64,000 nt of DNA from Ignavibacteriales bacterium. GTDB taxonomy: Bacteria; Bacteroidota; Ignavibacteria; UBA10030; SZUA-254. The stretch is taken from positions 124,001-188,000 of the forward strand of contig JACRMQ010000005.1 in the NCBI GenBank assembly GCA_016214905.1. The letters are read 5' to 3'. This document shows positions 48,160 through 60,667 of the stretch, one piece after another. Every line of letters begins with the position of its first letter. Position 1 is the first letter of the stretch. The position numbers were made by a program, and so were the translations under genes. The notes under the pieces were generated by a model. The model made no database searches. It was given only the letters and a program-made list of their open reading frames with translations, and was not told the origin of the DNA.

Positions 48160-50061
48160 ATGCAAGAATTAGAACCCGATCCGAGAGATTATCGCGAGAC
48201 GCTTTTATCTGAAGCGGTGAATACCGAATCACCGCAAATGAATAAGACACTCTCTGTTTTTCGGACTTACTGGAAACAATTATTCATTCTATCTTTATGC
48301 ACTCTATTCATTTACGGAATTACCGTCACATACGATTTTGTCAATTACGATGATTACTACCTTGTTTCCCAGAACGAATCATTCCTAAAAAATCCGGGAA
48401 ATATCATTGCCTCGTTCTCGACCAGTGCATTTACATCATGGCGACAAGAAAGCATCTATTACCGTCCGATACTTTTAATAAGCTATATCCTCGACTATCA
48501 AATTTGGAAACTAAATCCGGCAGGATATCATGCCACAAACATCATCTTACATCTGATAACAGTAGCATTCATTTTTTTTCTATTTAACTCTCTTTCTAAA
48601 CAAATATGGCTCGCCTTAATTGCCGCTTTATTTTTCGCCGTCCATCCCATAAATGTTGAATCGGTTGCGTGGATTGCGGGCAGAAATGATATTCTCCTCG
48701 CGCTCTTCGTCGTTTTGATGATTTATTGGTATCATCTGCATTATGAAGTTGAAGAAAAATCGAACCGATATTTTATTCTGAGCGTCGTTGCTTTTTCTCT
48801 CGCCTTGTTCACTAAGGAATCAGCCGCGTTTTATCTCGCATTGATACCTTTATACGAACTTGTCATAAAAAAAGAACCTCTTCAATTATTATTCACAAAG
48901 ATTAAGATTAAAAAATTCTCACTGTTGTTATCTCCGTTGATCATTTATCTTCTTATCCGAATTTTACTTTTGGGGAAAATGATTGGCGCGGAAGAGATGT
49001 ACGGTAAACTTCCGTTCTGGAGTCGGGTTCAGATTCTTCCGGCTATACTTACAGAAAATATTAAATTGCTTCTTGCTCCAATAAATTTATCGGTTGAGCA
49101 TCCACTCGACCAATTGCTCTGGCTCGAATCTCCATGGAATATAATAGCGTTGATCGTTACGATCACGCTCTCAATTTTATTTATTTTCTCTTTACGCCAA
49201 AAAAATGTTTTTAGTTTTGCTTTGCTATGGATTGGCGTCGGTTTGATACCATCTTTAAATATTATACCATTGGCTGTTCCGATTCTCGAACATCGCCTTT
49301 ACACACCGATGGTTGGATTTGCTTTCGTTTTTGTAACGCTTATTTCAAGTATCAACATCGGAAAGAATTTCCTTACAACAAGAATAGCGGTAATATTGTT
49401 GGTAATTGCCTTTACAATTTCTTCCTTTTTGCAAGTTCCTGTTTGGAAAAATAGCGAATCGTTATGGCTTAATGCTATCGAGAAAGCTCCGACCGCGAGT
49501 CGATCATACTTTAATCTTGCAGGACACTATTTCGACAAGCAAGAATACGACCGATCAATTATTCTCTTAAAAAAATATATCGAATTAAAACCTGATGATT
49601 TTTTAGGATATTCAAAGTTGAGACAGACTTATTACATATCGGGAAAAATACCCGAAGCTGTCTCGGTGTGTAGAACACTTATTTCACTTGAACCAAAAAA
49701 CGAGAATCGTTACATCGAATTAGCCGCGTTGTTCGAACAACTGAGTCTTCCCGACAGCGCAATCAACACTTACCTTCAAGCGTTGAATAAAGATTCAATT
49801 TCATACCGCATTCATGAACGATTGGGATTACTGTACGCAAATCTGAATAACCGAGAAAACGCGATACAATCGTTGCTGCAATCTGTCCGCATCAAACCGG
49901 ATTATGCTTCCGCATATTTCAATCTTGGAAAAATATACTCTATGATAGGGAAAACCGACAGCGCGTTGATCATGATTGAGCGCGGAGAAAGTTTTGGGAA
50001 AATACCGACCGATATGGTTCAGTTAAAAAATATTCTGCTTGGCTCCAAATCGGATAAGTAA
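48160..50061 (+). CDS. TMTC-like membrane GT-C protein with C-terminal TPR repeats
   Basis: A 633-residue protein. After a cytoplasmic 40-residue start it has about 10-11 transmembrane segments. 'DFVNYDDYYLVSQNESFL' near 63-80 places Asp residues in the first loop, as in GT-C sugar transferases, and 'ALFFAVHPINVESVAWIAGR' near 157-176 is the TMTC-type signature. From about residue 430, four or five TPR units follow ('YFNLAGHYFDKQEYDRSIIL', 'YFNLGKIYSMIGKTDSALI'). This layout matches bacterial TMTC-like O-mannosyltransferase candidates. The substrate is unknown. It starts 22 bp after murA. Confidence 0.75.
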   Translation: MQELEPDPRDYRETLLSEAVNTESPQMNKTLSVFRTYWKQLFILSLCTLFIYGITVTYDFVNYDDYYLVSQNESFLKNPGNIIASFSTSAFTSWRQESIYYRPILLISYILDYQIWKLNPAGYHATNIILHLITVAFIFFLFNSLSKQIWLALIAALFFAVHPINVESVAWIAGRNDILLALFVVLMIYWYHLHYEVEEKSNRYFILSVVAFSLALFTKESAAFYLALIPLYELVIKKEPLQLLFTKIKIKKFSLLLSPLIIYLLIRILLLGKMIGAEEMYGKLPFWSRVQILPAILTENIKLLLAPINLSVEHPLDQLLWLESPWNIIALIVTITLSILFIFSLRQKNVFSFALLWIGVGLIPSLNIIPLAVPILEHRLYTPMVGFAFVFVTLISSINIGKNFLTTRIAVILLVIAFTISSFLQVPVWKNSESLWLNAIEKAPTASRSYFNLAGHYFDKQEYDRSIILLKKYIELKPDDFLGYSKLRQTYYISGKIPEAVSVCRTLISLEPKNENRYIELAALFEQLSLPDSAINTYLQALNKDSISYRIHERLGLLYANLNNRENAIQSLLQSVRIKPDYASAYFNLGKIYSMIGKTDSALIMIERGESFGKIPTDMVQLKNILLGSKSDK

Positions 50062-50121
50062 CATTCCGAACAGACCTTAATTTATTATCTTTGCTTTTCT
50101 ACCAAAATTTGGCGATATTGA

Positions 50122-51486
<1,365 letters not shown>

Positions 51487-51517: not shown

Positions 51518-51889
51518 ATGCCTCATTCTACTGTTAAAATTGATGAACTAATAAACGATCATTCAAAATGCTTAGAAGATTGGTATCGTGGTACATACGC
51601 AGTTAGCGCTGCCCCAGGAATGCCAGTCGCTAAAATGCCAGATATCAAAAAAATCGAATTTTTATTTAATGAATGGTTTAATGCAAGAAGAGAGCAACTA
51701 ACAAATTTGATCTGCATCGAATGGGATTATCCATCAAAACGATTGGATCCAAAATTTCAAGATATTGTACAATTGACCGCTGCGTTGGCAGATTATCTTG
51801 TGCATTTCAAAACAATTATCCCCGCACCTTTTTCAACTGCAGTATTATTAATACAGAACGGCCTTGATAAACTTTGTAAAGTTTTGTAG
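51518..51889 (+). CDS. Hypothetical all-helical protein between enolase and trypsin-NACHT
   Basis: A 123-residue protein with no recognised domain. It looks mostly alpha-helical and soluble: an amphipathic stretch at about 4-25, a loop with 'SAAPGMPVAKMPD' near 30-42, then helices with 'IEFLFNEWFNARREQLTNLI' (46-65) and a Leu/Ala-rich end. There is no signal peptide or membrane segment. GGAG at 51507-51510 is a good ribosome-binding site. It lies 31 bp after the enolase and 5 bp before the protease-NACHT gene, in the same direction, so it is probably part of the cassette. It could be an adaptor domain (such as the effector-associated domains of bacterial conflict systems) or a regulator; this is a guess. 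Confidence 0.75.
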   Translation: MPHSTVKIDELINDHSKCLEDWYRGTYAVSAAPGMPVAKMPDIKKIEFLFNEWFNARREQLTNLICIEWDYPSKRLDPKFQDIVQLTAALADYLVHFKTIIPAPFSTAVLLIQNGLDKLCKVL

Positions 51890-51894
51890 TATTT

Positions 51895-54321
51895 ATGACA
51901 TTCGCAAGGTTACAAAAGAATACAAAATCTACCGTGTTAATATGGAATAAGAAACAATTAATTGGAACAGGTGTAATTATAACATCCTATGGTCTTATTG
52001 TAACTTGTTCACACATTCATAGGAATGAAAAAAAAATCTATGTTGAAATAAATGGTAGGAAAATTGAAGCTAACGTATATAAAATATATACGAATAAAGA
52101 TGTAACTGTTCTGAAGTGTTTAGGTTTCAACTCATTAGTTCATGCTGACTTATCAGATAATAGAAATCTATTCGTAGGCCAAAATGTTTATGTTATTTCT
52201 CCATCAATTCAACAAGATGATTACGCAAAAGACCCTGCTCCTAACTTATTGACAATAGCAACTTCAATTGCGCAAGTTTTATTAAACAAAAATGGAGATA
52301 TTAAACATTTTAATTTGACCATGCCAGTTAAATCGGGCGATAGCGGCTCAGGTATTTTTGATGATAAAGGTATGCTGATTGGTATAATATCCACAAAAAT
52401 GATCGACGGTGTAGCTGCTGCAATACCAATATTTTTCAATAATATTAATGCTGACCTTATTTTTAATCTAAAATTATTAATCCGATACAAAAAAAAAATA
52501 TATTATTATCTGCAAGACCAAGATATTTTTAAAAAATATATTTCTCTTAGATGCAAAATAAAAGGAAATGGGACCTGTAGCTTATCAAACTTTGTAATAA
52601 ATAAGTGGCTCAAAGACAATTCAAAACAATTCTTAGCTATCTTTGGAGAATTCGGATCTGGAAAATCTTTTTTTTGTTATCGATTGTCACATCTTTTAAC
52701 CGCTAATCCAGATCCTGGCACAAAGATACCGATAGTTATAAAGCTTAGCGAATTCAAGGGTTCTAATCAACCAACTTTGAAACAATTCCTCTTAGCACAA
52801 ATCTCTGAGAAATTAGGATTTCATTTTTTTGATTGGGAGGCTTTGGCGAATCTTTTGAATTCAGGAAAAATTTTATTGATTTATGACGGTTTCGAAGAAA
52901 TGAGTTTAAAAGCAAGCCGATTTCATATACTCGATAATTTCAAAGAAATTATTTCTACTTTTACACCAGGTTTGAAAGTAATACTCACATGTCGGACGCA
53001 TTACTTCAGATCTGAAGAAGAAGAAAAATTACTCACAAAAAGCGTACGTCCTGATGTCGTTGAAAGCTTACTAATGGAATATAGCAATCCTAGAAGTGTA
53101 TCATTAATCTATCTACTACCATTTCGAAAATCCGATGTCAAGAAATATCTAACGCTATCAACTGATCACTGGAGGAGTATTTATGCTAAAATCAATGATC
53201 CAAAGTTCTACAACCTTACCGATTTAGCCAAAAGACCAATACTTCTCAATGTAATTGCTGAAACAATAACTGAATTGGATTTCACAGAGAATAAGATTAC
53301 AGTAACTTCACTTTATCATCGATATGTTGAATTGTGTTTTTCGAGAGAATATGCTAGAACTGGTATGTCATCAGAAAAACAATTCGAATTAATGGAGAAT
53401 CTGGCTTTTGAAGCTTATCAAGAAAAGATAAATTATCTAACAGTGGATTTGATGAATAAAGTCATATCAATACAAAATCCCCATGATAGCTTTATGGATT
53501 CTGAGCTTTTTATTAGGAGTTATCCTTTTTTTAAAAAAGAAGAAGATAACCATCAAAATTTGCATTTTATTCATCAATCTTTCTTTGAATTTTTCGTAGC
53601 CAAAAAAATTGCTTCCAGTATTGAGGCACGATATCATAAACTATATTCAACAGAGTATTTAACAACTCCAATTGACAAATATCTTGTGGAACTTCTAGAG
53701 AGCAGTGGTACCCTTAAAGTTATACAATTATGGCTCAGCAAACATCAAGATGTCAACGTAAGAATGAATTGTGCGGTAACTTTAGGCAGGACTGGGCGCA
53801 AAGAATTTATTGAGATCCTAAACAATTGTCTTCTCACAGAAAAAGATATTGGAGTCGCTGGTCGCATTTCAGAAGCACTCCATTCTCTGGGTAGCAACGA
53901 ATCACTAAATACGTTCCTATATAACATTGATAAATACTCAGAGGTAGAAATTGATACGGGAAAATCAGAAAGCCATTCTTTGCTTTATGATATAGTGCAA
54001 CCCCTAGAAAATATTGATTCAGATATAGTTCGAAAAATAATAATGAATTTAAATCACCCCAATCCAAGAATTAGAAAATTTGCTGTTTTTATATTAGGGC
54101 GTATACAATCCCCGCTCGCGACTGAATCACTCTTACTATTTTTAAGGAACAAACACGAAACAATTCGGGCACGGCGTTATGCTGCAGCAGCTCTTGGCTA
54201 TATAGGTGATAGAAAATCTTTGAAGGTATTGCATTCGATCATTAAGGAGGAAAAAAATAAATATTTTACCGCTGAGTGTATAAAAGCCATTAAACGTATT
54301 AAAGAAAAACGTAAATTATGA
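51895..54321 (+). CDS. Trypsin-like protease-NACHT-HEAT STAND protein, putative defence/conflict effector
   Basis: An 808-residue, three-part protein. Residues 1-190 are a trypsin-like serine protease with a complete triad: His40 in 'IVTCSHIHR', Asp69 in 'NKDVTVLK' and Ser150 in 'SGDSGSGIF'. Residues about 240-560 are a NACHT NTPase: Walker A GEFGSGKS (251-258), Walker B '[11 protein letters not shown]' (326-336), a sensor region '[11 protein letters not shown]' near 362, then a helical region ending '[19 protein letters not shown]'. From about 640 to the end, HEAT-like repeats occur ('[18 protein letters not shown]', '[20 protein letters not shown]'). This is the layout of signal-activated NLR-like conflict proteins: repeat sensor, NACHT switch, protease effector. 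No signal peptide, so cytosolic. Codons are visibly more AT-rich than in murA or the phosphomutase nearby. Confidence 0.88.
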
Positions 54322-54350
54322 CGATTCATCTATTAATTAGATTATTCTTC

Positions 54351-54434
54351 AGAGTTGCGAAATATAATCAGCTAATACGTATCGAGGAAGAGCTTTCTTC
54401 AAATGCTATCTTCCCCGGAATAAGCGCTTTTAAA
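54351..54434 (+). pseudogene. eno: Remnant of a canonical enolase 3' end
   Basis: Translating from 54351 gives the typical C-terminus of bacterial enolase, starting '[15 protein letters not shown]' and ending 'FPGISAFK' before TAA at 54432-54434. It lies 29 bp after the stop of the protease-NACHT gene. In frame upstream it continues only as far as an ATG at 54318 through unrelated residues, so the other ~400 codons of this enolase are missing. It aligns with residues 399-422 of the intact enolase at 50161, but at DNA level the two are clearly diverged; the remnant is closer to the general enolase consensus. It marks the insertion or replacement point of the cassette. Confidence 0.85.
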
Positions 54435-54525
54435 TAAAACGTTTGCAATCTGTGTTTCTCTGCGGTAAAAAGCTCATCGTAGAGGTGCAGATGAAATTGG
54501 GTCTAAACAAAAAGGAGATAAAAGT

Positions 54526-55533
54526 ATGAACCGCTTGATTATCAGCTTCTCGATCATAATGATTTTCTGGAATCGAGCATATTCACAGGGAGAGGATTCA
54601 ACAAGTTTTGTGAACGTCATCAATTCGTTACTCGGCAGGAACCAACCGAAACTTGGTTTCATGTCGCAGTTTGCCGCTGAAGTAAAAGATGACGGCAAAA
54701 ACACAACGAGTGAATTCACGATACGATCTCTTCGTATGTATTTGACAGGTTCGGTCGATGAAAATTTTTCTTATTATTTTCAAGGAAATTTGAACGGAAC
54801 ATTTTCGCTTCTCGATTTGAAGTTGATGTATAAACTTAACGATCATTTTCGAATCGATGCAGGGAAACTCAAAACACCGTACTCAGTCGAATACCTGCTG
54901 AACGATGCGCGTATCTTCTTTACAAGTCGATCCACAGTTGCAAGTACGATAGGACCATTCAAACAAAATGGCATGCAGTTGAACGGATCTTTCCTCGATA
55001 AAAAAATACTGTTCACAGTCGGCGCCTATAACGGCGACAATGCCGTGAAGAAAAACATTTCTCTCTTTGTTGGAAGAGTGTTGCTCAAGCCGATTAAAAA
55101 AGAAGAAAATGAGATGGGACTACAGCTTGAATTTGGTGGCAGTATGGCATACACAAAAGAGGAAGATGATTTTTCCAGTCTTCCATTTTACGGAAAGAAT
55201 CATAATCTCAACGGTCTTTATTCCAGAATAATGTTCAAAGATTATTGGTTAGAAGGGGAATACCTTAATGCTGTCAGCAATTCTCAAAAAACTCGTGAGG
55301 GTTTTTATCTCGATCTTGGAAAGAAGTTAACTCCCGAGATTGAAGCAGCAGTACGTTTTGACTGGTATGCAAAATATCCGAAATGGATTTACGATATATC
55401 ACGTAAATATATCGCCGGACTGAATTATTATCCCTTCAAGGAGATCAAACTCCAACTGAACTATGAAAGAGATCAAACGTTGAAAGTTAATGCCGGTTAT
55501 TTAAATTTTCAGTATGCAATAAATTTTGAATAA
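54526..55533 (+). CDS. Phosphate-selective porin O/P-like protein
   Basis: A 335-residue outer-membrane barrel with a signal peptide (cut near Ser20-Gln21). 'SEFTIRSLRMYLTGSVDENF' near 62-81 and 'LLDLKLMYKLNDHFRIDAGK' followed by 'LKTPYSVEYLL' near 115-125 match the OprO/OprP porin pattern ('r.ar...g.......y..q.d......l.da.......l.v..G..k.P'). It is shorter than Pseudomonas OprP (about 440). A strong ribosome-binding site (AAAGGAGAT) precedes the start. It could pass phosphate or other anions; specificity is not readable. Confidence 0.82.
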   Translation: MNRLIISFSIIMIFWNRAYSQGEDSTSFVNVINSLLGRNQPKLGFMSQFAAEVKDDGKNTTSEFTIRSLRMYLTGSVDENFSYYFQGNLNGTFSLLDLKLMYKLNDHFRIDAGKLKTPYSVEYLLNDARIFFTSRSTVASTIGPFKQNGMQLNGSFLDKKILFTVGAYNGDNAVKKNISLFVGRVLLKPIKKEENEMGLQLEFGGSMAYTKEEDDFSSLPFYGKNHNLNGLYSRIMFKDYWLEGEYLNAVSNSQKTREGFYLDLGKKLTPEIEAAVRFDWYAKYPKWIYDISRKYIAGLNYYPFKEIKLQLNYERDQTLKVNAGYLNFQYAINFE

Positions 55534-56980: not shown

Positions 56981-57050
56981 ATGCTGAAGGATGAGGGATG
57001 ATAGCGTTAAGGATAAAGGATGAAGTTTAAAGGATGAGGGATGATAAGAT
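56972..57050 (+). repeat. Left GGATGA-rich repeat flanking the four-helix-bundle gene
   Basis: Degenerate copies of AAGGATGA/GAGGGATGA occupy 56972-57050. The complementary form (TTCATCC repeated) appears at 57433-57462 on the other side of the gene, so the two form imperfect inverted repeats around a small ORF. Confidence 0.7.
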
Positions 57051-57402
57051 GATGGATTTGAGGAAGAGGACGAAAGAGTTTGCTTTGATGATAATAAAGA
57101 TTTACTCCTCTCTTTCAAAGACAACAGAAAGTCAGGTTTTGGGAAAACAATTATTAAGATCGGGCACATCTGTTGGCGCTCATTATCGGGAAGCATGCCG
57201 CGCTCGATCAAATGCGGAATTTATCAGCAAATTAGAAGGTGGTTTACAGGAACTTGAAGAAACTCAGTATTGGTTAGAATTATTTATTGAAGCAGCTAAT
57301 TCAGAATCATCTGCGTTTCGAAATGTGTTAAAAGAATCGGATGAATTAATCGCCATATTCACAACTATCGTTAAAGAAGTAAAGCTTAAAGGCAAGAAAT
57401 GA
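57034..57402 (+). CDS. Four-helix bundle protein, 23S rRNA-intervening-sequence (IVP/S23) family
   Basis: A 122-residue, fully helical protein. 'GKQLLRSGTSVGAHYREACRARS' region at about 40-62 and 'EETQYWLELFIEAANSES' near 78-95 are the hallmarks of the S23/IVP four-helix-bundle family. The family was first seen in ORFs of intervening sequences in 23S rRNA genes, and is also related to the Avd accessory protein of diversity-generating retroelements. Three ATGs (57034, 57049, 57052) are possible starts; the family usually starts close to the 'DLRKRTKEFAL' stretch, which favours 57049 or 57052. The gene sits between inverted GGATGA repeats, outside any rRNA gene. Confidence 0.85.
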   Translation: MRDDKMMDLRKRTKEFALMIIKIYSSLSKTTESQVLGKQLLRSGTSVGAHYREACRARSNAEFISKLEGGLQELEETQYWLELFIEAANSESSAFRNVLKESDELIAIFTTIVKEVKLKGKK

Positions 57403-58172: not shown

Positions 58173-58401
58173 AATTGAAATACGATAAAGCAATATTGAA
58201 TTATCACGGTACAGTATTGAATTGTAACGAAACAATATTGCTCCACGGCAATGCAGCATTGAACTGCGCCGGTGCAATATTGAATAACGACAATGCAATA
58301 TTGAACTGCCTCAAAGCAGTATTGAATTACGGCTATGCAATATTGCATCACGACGATACGATATTGCATTACGACAAAACTATATTGAATTGCAGCAATT
58401 C
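58173..58401. repeat. 21-bp tandem repeat array, ten full units
   Basis: Ten adjacent 21-bp units (58192-58401) preceded by a degenerate 19-bp unit (58173-58191). The core ATTG is invariant and most units show CAATATTG, a perfect 8-bp palindrome, at the unit junction; the other half of each unit varies. Because 21 is a multiple of three, both strands read as open frames with seven-residue repeats, but these have no ribosome-binding site and no recognisable protein. The spacing of exactly 21 bp puts the palindromes on the same helix face. Confidence 0.9.
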
Positions 58402-58856: not shown

Positions 58857-59966
58857 ATGATAAATATTATGCAACAGAAATCAAAGACTTTAGCTGACAT
58901 ACTCTTCCCTGAACGGGATGAAACAGATAACGAGCTATTAAATGTTCCACCAGAACAAAGAAAACTTCATACTGAAACATACGATTTTTCAATTTCAACA
59001 ATTTACGATTATTTAACTTCAAGTAGAATATTCATTCCGAGATTTCAGCGGAAATATATTTGGAGCAAAGGACAAGCATCCAGATTGATTGAGTCCTTGA
59101 TTATTCAATGCCCCATCCCAGTTTTATATTTTAGCCAAACGACAGATGAAAAATTTTCAGTAATTGATGGAAACCAAAGACTAAACAGCATAAAGCTGTT
59201 TATTGATAATGGTTTTGAATTAACGGGACTTACAACTTACCCCGATTTGAATGGTAATACGTTCAGCTCATTAGATCCAAGATTTCAAAGGCATATATTA
59301 AATCGAACGCTTAGATGCATTGTAATCCTGAAAGAGACACATCCTCAAATAAAATTTGATGTTTTTGAACGAATTAATACTGGCTCGGCTAGACTGACAC
59401 CACAAGAACTTCGCCATGGCATTTATACTGGACCATTTATAGACCTGTTGGATGAAATTGCAAAAGACAAACTTTTCTTGAAGTTGACTCAAACCTCAAA
59501 AGATACTAGAATGAAAGCAGAAGAGCTTGTTTTAAGATTCTTTGCTCTGAGTGAGAGCTTGAGCACATATACAAATCCATTCGTTACTTTTCTCAATAAT
59601 TACTGTGAACAAAACAGAAATATTGATAGTATTAAAAGCAAATCTCTCAAAACATCCTTCTTGAACATTTTAAATAAAATAAACTTGGTACTTGGGGAAT
59701 ATTCATTTAAGGTTTATGATGTTAATCTTAAAAAGATAAGATTTAATGCGGCTTTATTCGATGCCCAAATGATTGGTTTTTTCAAAAAGAATCCATCAGA
59801 ATCTTGCATTGAATCTATAAATAAAACTGAATTTATAAAAAATCAACAGGTACTTTTTAAAAATGAGGATTTTTATAAATGGATTACGGCAGCAACCACA
59901 AATACAAATGCGGTAAAAAATAGAATTAGCGACTACATTGAATTCATAGACAAAGAATGTAAATAG
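58857..59966 (+). CDS. DUF262 (ParB/sulfiredoxin-like fold) protein, defence-type
   Basis: A 369-residue protein with the DUF262 N-terminal domain: 'SRIFIPRFQRKYIWSKGQAS' region near 56-74 and the DGQQR-type motif 'SVIDGNQRLNSIKLF' (Asp104-Arg108). These form the ParB-like NTPase/nuclease core seen in GmrS-type and other anti-phage proteins. 'VFERINTGSARLTPQELRHG' near 165-184 is the second conserved block. No DUF1524 HNH nuclease domain follows; the C-terminal 150 residues are helical. Only 2 bp separate it from the HEPN gene, so the pair is translated together. Start could be Met1 (58857) or Met5 (58869). Confidence 0.88.
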   Translation: MINIMQQKSKTLADILFPERDETDNELLNVPPEQRKLHTETYDFSISTIYDYLTSSRIFIPRFQRKYIWSKGQASRLIESLIIQCPIPVLYFSQTTDEKFSVIDGNQRLNSIKLFIDNGFELTGLTTYPDLNGNTFSSLDPRFQRHILNRTLRCIVILKETHPQIKFDVFERINTGSARLTPQELRHGIYTGPFIDLLDEIAKDKLFLKLTQTSKDTRMKAEELVLRFFALSESLSTYTNPFVTFLNNYCEQNRNIDSIKSKSLKTSFLNILNKINLVLGEYSFKVYDVNLKKIRFNAALFDAQMIGFFKKNPSESCIESINKTEFIKNQQVLFKNEDFYKWITAATTNTNAVKNRISDYIEFIDKECK

Positions 59967-59968
59967 TT

Positions 59969-60667
59969 ATGCCCTATAAGAAAAGCATATGTAGGGCTGA
60001 TTTTGAGGTTAGCCAAAATAAATTAATCTCCTCTGCTAGAAAAATAAGTTTGAAAAGATTGAATATTGAACCATCCATACAAACTCAGGTATTTCAATCA
60101 TCTATATTTCTGTTGTGTGCAATGATTGAACAATATATTCTTGAGATACACGAACAAATTTTATTTAAAGTTTCAAACCAAAACATTTCATTCTCTAATT
60201 TTCCTGCAAAGACAAGAACATTAGCTCTCCTAAGCAAACAGATGGGTCATTTTCGCAAATACTTTCATCAAAACGACGAAAGGGAGCTAGCGAAACAACT
60301 TGAAATTACTCAACAACTTTACTCAGTTTTAGATAATAACCAAATCTATAATAATCAATTCAATCACGAACTAATTGTTCATCATAATAAATATCCATCG
60401 ATAAAGAATTTAAAAATTGTATTCTTTAGATTTGGCATAGATAACATTATTTCCGAAATGAACAAGCGTGGTAAAAAAGACTATGAACTATTAATAAAAT
60501 CTTTTTTGGATGTTAGGGAATCAATAGCTCATGAATTACCACCATCTCTAACTCATATCGATGTTAGACGTCATTTTCACAATATTTCAGACTCAATTGA
60601 TAAAATAGATAGAATTCTATTTACTCACGTAAAGAAATATTTTGGCCCAAATTGCTGGCCAACATAG
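59969..60667 (+). CDS. HEPN-domain protein, putative RNase partner of the DUF262 protein
   Basis: A 232-residue helical protein. Near the C-terminus, 'FLDVRESIAHELPPS' contains the Rx4xH-type motif of catalytic HEPN RNases (Arg183, four residues, His188), and 'LLCAMIEQYILEIHEQILF' near 48-66 is the typical first long helix. It resembles the MAE_28990/MAE_18760-like HEPN group. Paired with DUF262 two bp upstream, it may be the toxic or effector part of a defence or toxin-antitoxin-like unit, with DUF262 as sensor or NTPase. This is inference from motif and context; no activity is proven. Confidence 0.75.
   Translation: MPYKKSICRADFEVSQNKLISSARKISLKRLNIEPSIQTQVFQSSIFLLCAMIEQYILEIHEQILFKVSNQNISFSNFPAKTRTLALLSKQMGHFRKYFHQNDERELAKQLEITQQLYSVLDNNQIYNNQFNHELIVHHNKYPSIKNLKIVFFRFGIDNIISEMNKRGKKDYELLIKSFLDVRESIAHELPPSLTHIDVRRHFHNISDSIDKIDRILFTHVKKYFGPNCWPT

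Follow-up and report, generated by a model that had tools for sequence, protein, structure and literature searches.

Displacement of a resident enolase gene by a divergent enolase and a putative immune passenger in an Ignavibacteriales bacterium

Introduction

In homology-facilitated illegitimate recombination, the insertion of foreign DNA is coupled with the loss of resident DNA (PMC3240628). The process is known in Acinetobacter, Streptococcus pneumoniae, and Pseudomonas stutzeri, with an average gain of about 1 kb (PMC3240628). The sequential displacement of T6SS effector modules, which involves effector and immunity genes, leaves shifted 3' remnants (PMC5361080). In Escherichia coli, prophage e14, which carries an integrase, lies in icd; the 5' part of the host gene is kept, a near-identical 3' end is restored, and the displaced 3' segment is the icdC remnant (PMC11148124).

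Bacterial NACHT and antiviral STAND proteins (bNACHT, Avs) have an N-terminal effector, a central NACHT domain, and C-terminal repeats as the likely sensor. Fusions of trypsin to defense enzymes are on record (PMC12799240), and in conflict systems, trypsin-like peptidases have small partners, encoded by the Trypco genes (PMC7159879). In the literature, we found nothing relevant on enolase as an insertion site or on a link between enolase and NLR-like proteins.

Here we describe a locus at which both themes meet. It lies in a stretch of 64,000 nucleotides from an Ignavibacteriales bacterium (contig JACRMQ010000005.1, positions 124,001 to 188,000; hereafter, the window). As in homology-facilitated illegitimate recombination, a foreign gain is coupled to a resident loss at a site that would be homologous to one end of the incoming DNA, but the gain is about 4.2 kb instead of about 1 kb, and the site is an essential metabolic gene. 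As in T6SS displacement, most of a gene has given way to a new module and the old 3' part is pushed downstream, but here the parts are a core enzyme gene and a putative immune passenger. And as at e14/icd, a displaced 3' segment of a metabolic enzyme gene lies downstream of acquired DNA, but nearly the whole gene was replaced and there is no integrase.

Results

The last 28 codons of a canonical enolase gene

The features of the locus, with coordinates in the window, are:

48160..50061, + strand: TPR protein, the upstream neighbor, kept in place in a same-genus genome (78.6% identical)
50083..50134, + strand: retained leader of the resident eno, upstream of the left junction (alignment with the eno leaders of G001, G006, G009, and G003)
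50135..50460, + strand: range of the left junction, from just before the ATG to about codon 100 (fading leader homology; protein similarity)
50161..51486, + strand: divergent enolase of 441 amino acids, the sole intact copy in the genome (Enolase_N and Enolase_C in Pfam), with His changed to Asn at residue 367
51518..51889, + strand: orphan of 123 amino acids between the enolase and NACHT genes, with no match in Pfam or PADLOC
51895..54321, + strand: trypsin-like protease / NACHT / HEAT-repeat protein (Pfam), a putative NLR-like immune protein
54318..54437, + strand: possible open reading frame of 39 amino acids that runs in frame into the scar (read from the sequence)
54340..54351, + strand: right junction; homology to eno of G001 starts at the AGA codon at 54351 (DNA alignment)
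54351..54437, + strand: scar, the final 28 codons of the resident eno with their stop codon (Enolase_C match; identity to the 3' end of eno from G001)
54526..55533, + strand: Porin_O_P family protein (OprP-like; Pfam), the downstream neighbor, kept in place in the same-genus genome (77.6% identical)

The initial annotation of this DNA, which was made from the letters alone, described 54351-54434 as the C-terminus of a canonical enolase and gave its length as both 27 residues and 28 codons. The translation is 28 residues, followed by TAA, so the second figure stands and the first does not. Residues 1-27 match Enolase_C from Pfam (E = 4.5e-7; the score of 29.9 bits exceeds the curated cut-off) and align to positions 267-293 of its 296, which is the extreme C-terminus. 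Compared to the 3' end of eno from a genome of the same genus (G001), the scar is identical at 28/28 residues and at 78/84 bases. A chance match is excluded: the scar is a genuine remnant of an enolase gene, as had been claimed. When the entire assembly was searched with Pfam, Enolase_C occurred at two positions only, in the intact gene at 50161-51486 and in the scar, which bears out the view that the rest of the canonical enolase is gone. The 3' end of the intact gene is clearly different from the scar (65% over 23 residues), and we agree that this was no recent tandem duplication.

All six base differences between the scar and G001 are silent (a neutral simulation gives a chance of 0.0002 for this). 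The dS of the scar is 0.42, a value that is based on very few sites and that is not above those of the neighboring genes (about 0.83 to 1.8). Most of the scar's divergence therefore arose under protein constraint. Either the displacement is recent compared with the split from G001, or the scar is still translated. Translation is possible because an ATG at 54318, which shares bases with the stop of the NACHT gene, is in frame with the scar. The resulting 39-codon reading frame may be due to chance, or a fourth gene, since lost, may have begun here.

We did not recognize a second enolase scar in a sample of 294 genomes from the class, among the matches listed. The truncated enolases in G051, G520, G561, G583, and G585 all lie at contig edges, and the one in G032 is a frameshift.

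The site in relatives

In G001, which is the sole same-genus genome that we compared, the gene order is TPR-eno-porin-pgm, and eno is complete and canonical. eno is also followed by the porin gene in members of the family (G006, G004, G014, and G012). Thus relatives without the cassette do have eno directly before the porin gene, as the initial annotation had anticipated. With eno between the same neighbors in G001, we are highly confident that the resident eno was displaced by the string of enolase, orphan, and protease-NACHT genes.

The resident leader is still there. A block around CTTTGCTTTT...GGCGATATTGAGGCACTTT is common to the window and its relatives, including G006. Homology to the leader fades within 50135-50460, and protein similarity to G001 continues to about codon 100, with no confirmation from silent sites. 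Nothing of the resident eno is left from a point near its start codon up to codon -28. The earlier reading, a clean insertion some 81 bp ahead of the stop codon, is not supported. Relative to G001, about 4.2 kb were gained and about 1.2 kb of the resident eno were lost; that is, the insertion is coupled with a resident deletion, as in homology-facilitated illegitimate recombination.

Between the junctions, there are only the genes for the enolase, the orphan, and the trypsin-NACHT-HEAT protein. Neither the gene content nor Pfam shows an integrase or other recombinase between them, in agreement with the earlier remark that no integrase is visible. Also, we found no att repeat and no convincing direct repeat that joins the two ends of the cassette.

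Beyond the porin gene, the window has a few other features. A 23S_rRNA_IVP (four-helix) gene at 57034-57402 lies between pgm and a thioredoxin-like gene. In G001, just about 94 bp separate pgm from the thioredoxin-like gene, and a 36-residue stretch there resembles the start of the 23S_rRNA_IVP gene. About ten imperfect 21-bp tandem repeats (58174-58391, consensus ATTGAATTACGACAATGCAAT) are open in several frames. Further downstream of the cassette, at 58857-60667, adjacent genes encode GmrSD_N (DUF262) and RiboL-PSP-HEPN proteins, which are possibly a defense pair.

The passenger genes

The orphan gene starts 31 bp after the enolase gene, and the NACHT gene lies 5 bp beyond the orphan. Across 395 genomes from the phylum, the orphan has a single weak and partial match, which is within a DUF262/GmrSD-like protein from G143 and which we took to be due to chance. 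Its structure model was unusable (pLDDT of 47). The orphan has the same position as the small Trypco partners of trypsin-like peptidases (PMC7159879), but it has no match in Pfam.

The protease-NACHT protein matches Trypsin_2 (4.8e-14), NACHT (7.4e-9), and HEAT_2 (8.5e-16), all above Pfam's cut-offs. By eye, the protease triad appears to be intact (TCSHI, NKDVTVL, and GDSGS), and the NACHT domain has Walker motifs (FGEFGSGKS and LLIYDGFEE). This is the architecture of NACHT/STAND proteins, with an NTPase between an effector and repeats. In particular, as in bNACHT and Avs proteins, the effector (trypsin) is N-terminal, the NACHT domain is central, and the C-terminal repeats are the likely sensor. 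By this analogy, we propose a putative immune role for the protein. Unlike those systems, this gene is co-directional with an enolase gene, and we found no full-length homolog of the protein among relatives, plasmids, or genomes of the phylum and class. PADLOC gave only weak and partial matches to the trypsin and HEAT parts.

Composition and origin of the cassette enolase

The cassette enolase is a full-length two-domain protein by sequence (Enolase_N, 5.1e-61; Enolase_C, 1.7e-114) and is colinear with solved enolases. GC3 is 0.25-0.27 in the enolase, orphan, and NACHT genes, while it is mostly 0.39-0.43 in the neighboring genes and 0.40 in eno from G001. By this AT-rich codon signature, the enolase belongs with its two passengers. 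Also, its third-position identity to G001 is just 0.39, versus 0.53-0.66 for the genes encoding TPR, porin, Trx, and pgm.

We did not find a close relative of this enolase. None above 65% identity turned up in 100 relatives, 391 genomes of the class, or 84,980 species; the scan of species relied on six exact 8-residue words, which relatives below about 80% identity can escape. The best enolase from that scan was 63% identical, and the passenger genes were absent from all of the loci that we examined. Viral contigs, searched with the enolase and the NACHT protein, held no relatives of the cassette. Plasmids, searched with the scar, NACHT protein, enolase, and orphan, held no full-length relative of the NACHT protein and no orphan. 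Thus, the arrangement expected of a donor (eno-orphan-NACHT) was not found in the species scan, the viral contigs, the plasmids, or the phylum and class genomes.

The initial annotation suggested that the 5' part of the enolase might group with relatives and the 3' part might not. At the protein level, this is what a sliding comparison showed. Residues 1-125 look like those of an ordinary member of the order and are nearest to G001 (80%, SH-aLRT of 73). Residues 126-421 are unlike the order and keep only 1 of 13 order-diagnostic residues; in the same region, the tested members of the order have 10-13 of 13-15, and the tested outsiders have 0-6 of 11-13. Silent sites give no significant contrast that would support a crossover inside eno. 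In joint tests with G001 and G006, total identity was significant (0.0003 of sequence pairs) and silent sites were not. A tract at codons 46-80 (87% to G001) was rejected as a crossover (permutation p of 0.34), and unrelated enolases reach a similar third-position identity. The position of the cassette enolase in trees was unstable between runs, and AU tests do not reject a grouping with G001. Possibly, the donor already carried an older mosaic, or the C-terminal part evolved fast.

Separately, the third-position identity between the eno genes of G001 and G006 is 0.32-0.37 in codons 1-60 and 0.53-0.72 in the rest. Given the low identity in codons 1-60, the 5' end of eno from G001 may itself have been exchanged.

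The sole enolase has an altered active site

In the alignment, the cassette enolase departs from 13 of 149 near-invariant columns, and most of these lie between residues 335 and 402. Residue 367 is Asn, where all of the other enolases compared (109/109) have the active-site His, so the conserved set of active-site residues is incomplete. The further changes include those from Gly to Ala (370), Asp to Glu (374), Thr to Val (391), and Lys to Asn (402). The remaining catalytic and metal-binding residues are present (with roles as generally assigned in enolases). In yeast enolase, activity reportedly falls to about one tenth when His373 is changed to Asn, a result credited to Brewer et al. 1997, and we take Asn 367 to be the same change.

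No pyruvate kinase (PF00224) was detectable in the whole genome, and two PPDK-family genes match PPDK_N. Since there is no other enolase, two PPDK-family genes are present, and no pyruvate kinase is detectable, the cassette copy is most likely the enolase that the cell uses. With a single enolase in the genome, enolase function has to depend on this copy.

Discussion

How the resident gene was displaced

We lean towards a single event, in which incoming DNA that carried a divergent enolase gene with two downstream passengers (the orphan and the trypsin-NACHT-HEAT gene) would have displaced the resident eno by homology-facilitated illegitimate recombination. The left join would lie in the eno leader or in the conserved first part of eno. 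The right join, 84 bp before the resident stop codon, would have formed with no visible homologous partner, and the resident stretch between the two joins would have been lost. The outcome would be one string of genes behind the resident leader (the new enolase, the orphan, and the protease-NACHT gene), closed by the 28-codon scar. We favor this route because of the relative with an empty site, the exclusively silent changes in the scar, the single enolase, the shared GC3, the low third-position identity, and the retention of just 1/13 diagnostic residues. Homology-facilitated illegitimate recombination takes one homologous crossover as its anchor, with 3-10 bp of microhomology at the other join. 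As for an anchor at the left, the crossover test pointed to a protein-level mosaic at residues 1-125, and silent sites were not significant. Other points that count against the single event are the donor arrangement, which our searches did not turn up, the AU tests, which do not reject a grouping of the enolase with G001, and the gain of about 4.2 kb, where published events average about 1 kb.

The main rival would reach the same end state in two steps: a larger element bearing an enolase gene inserted between the eno leader and the resident eno, and what remained of the element, along with most of the redundant eno, was later deleted, sparing 28 codons. Any integrase would have been deleted too, which accounts for its absence, and it is also accounted for that the left junction lies next to the start codon. 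The ATG at the stop of the NACHT gene could then be where a lost fourth gene, fused to the scar, had begun. But this history requires two events, the junctions have no convincing repeat, and among the matches listed, the sampled genomes of the class have no related element or second scar. We consider it unlikely.

Alternatively, the enolase could be a fast-evolving copy of the genus's own enolase that arose by local duplication, with passengers that arrived separately. The affinity of residues 1-125 to G001, and the failure of AU tests to reject that grouping, fit with this idea. However, the third-position identity to G001 is far under that of the other genes, the GC3 of the enolase equals that of the passengers and is unlike that of eno from G001, and 12/13 order-diagnostic residues were lost in residues 126-421. 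A local origin is quite improbable.

The initial annotation likened the cassette to integrating elements that restore the end of their target gene. In favor of a site-specific element with eno as its attachment gene, the displaced 3' end downstream resembles the arrangement at e14/icd (PMC11148124). But the cassette has no integrase, and its ends are not joined by a convincing direct repeat. Nor was the 5' part of the resident gene kept (third-position identity to G001 is 0.27-0.37 in codons 1-60), and the scar is not resembled by the 3' end that the cassette enolase has. Also, no other element at eno was seen in the class sample, among the matches listed. This comparison is very unlikely to hold. 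Finally, misjoins in assemblies typically fall in conserved genes, but a chimera is exceedingly improbable, as it would need two independent junctions with the correct neighbors on both sides, in an assembly of 10 contigs with 99.64% completeness and 0.19% contamination, and would leave the genome with no enolase at all.

Implications

The three cassette genes would probably be co-transcribed from the eno promoter. By analogy, infection would release the protease, which would kill the cell or stop its growth. The cell would have survived the swap because it obtains the enzyme from the incoming gene, and this would make the cassette hard to lose.

A more elaborate idea is that the enolase has a function within the cassette, remodeled to escape cleavage by the protease-NACHT protein or to be watched (guarded) by it. 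By capturing the host's sole enolase, the unit would have made itself impossible to lose, which would be a form of addiction with neither a toxin-antitoxin pair nor an integrase. We view this idea as very doubtful.

The event appears to be an accident of gene exchange, and an uncommon one, and not a novel type of mobile element. It is a single event, with no relatives found, and its interest lies mainly in the altered sole enolase and in the fact that a putative immune gene is linked to a core enzyme. It is also a clear case of a core metabolic gene and a putative immune gene being swapped together, with an empty-site relative, a scar in place, and no visible integrase. If such swaps recur, then essential genes could act as anchors that move defense genes from one lineage to another and hold them there, since the swap destroys the essential copy of the host.
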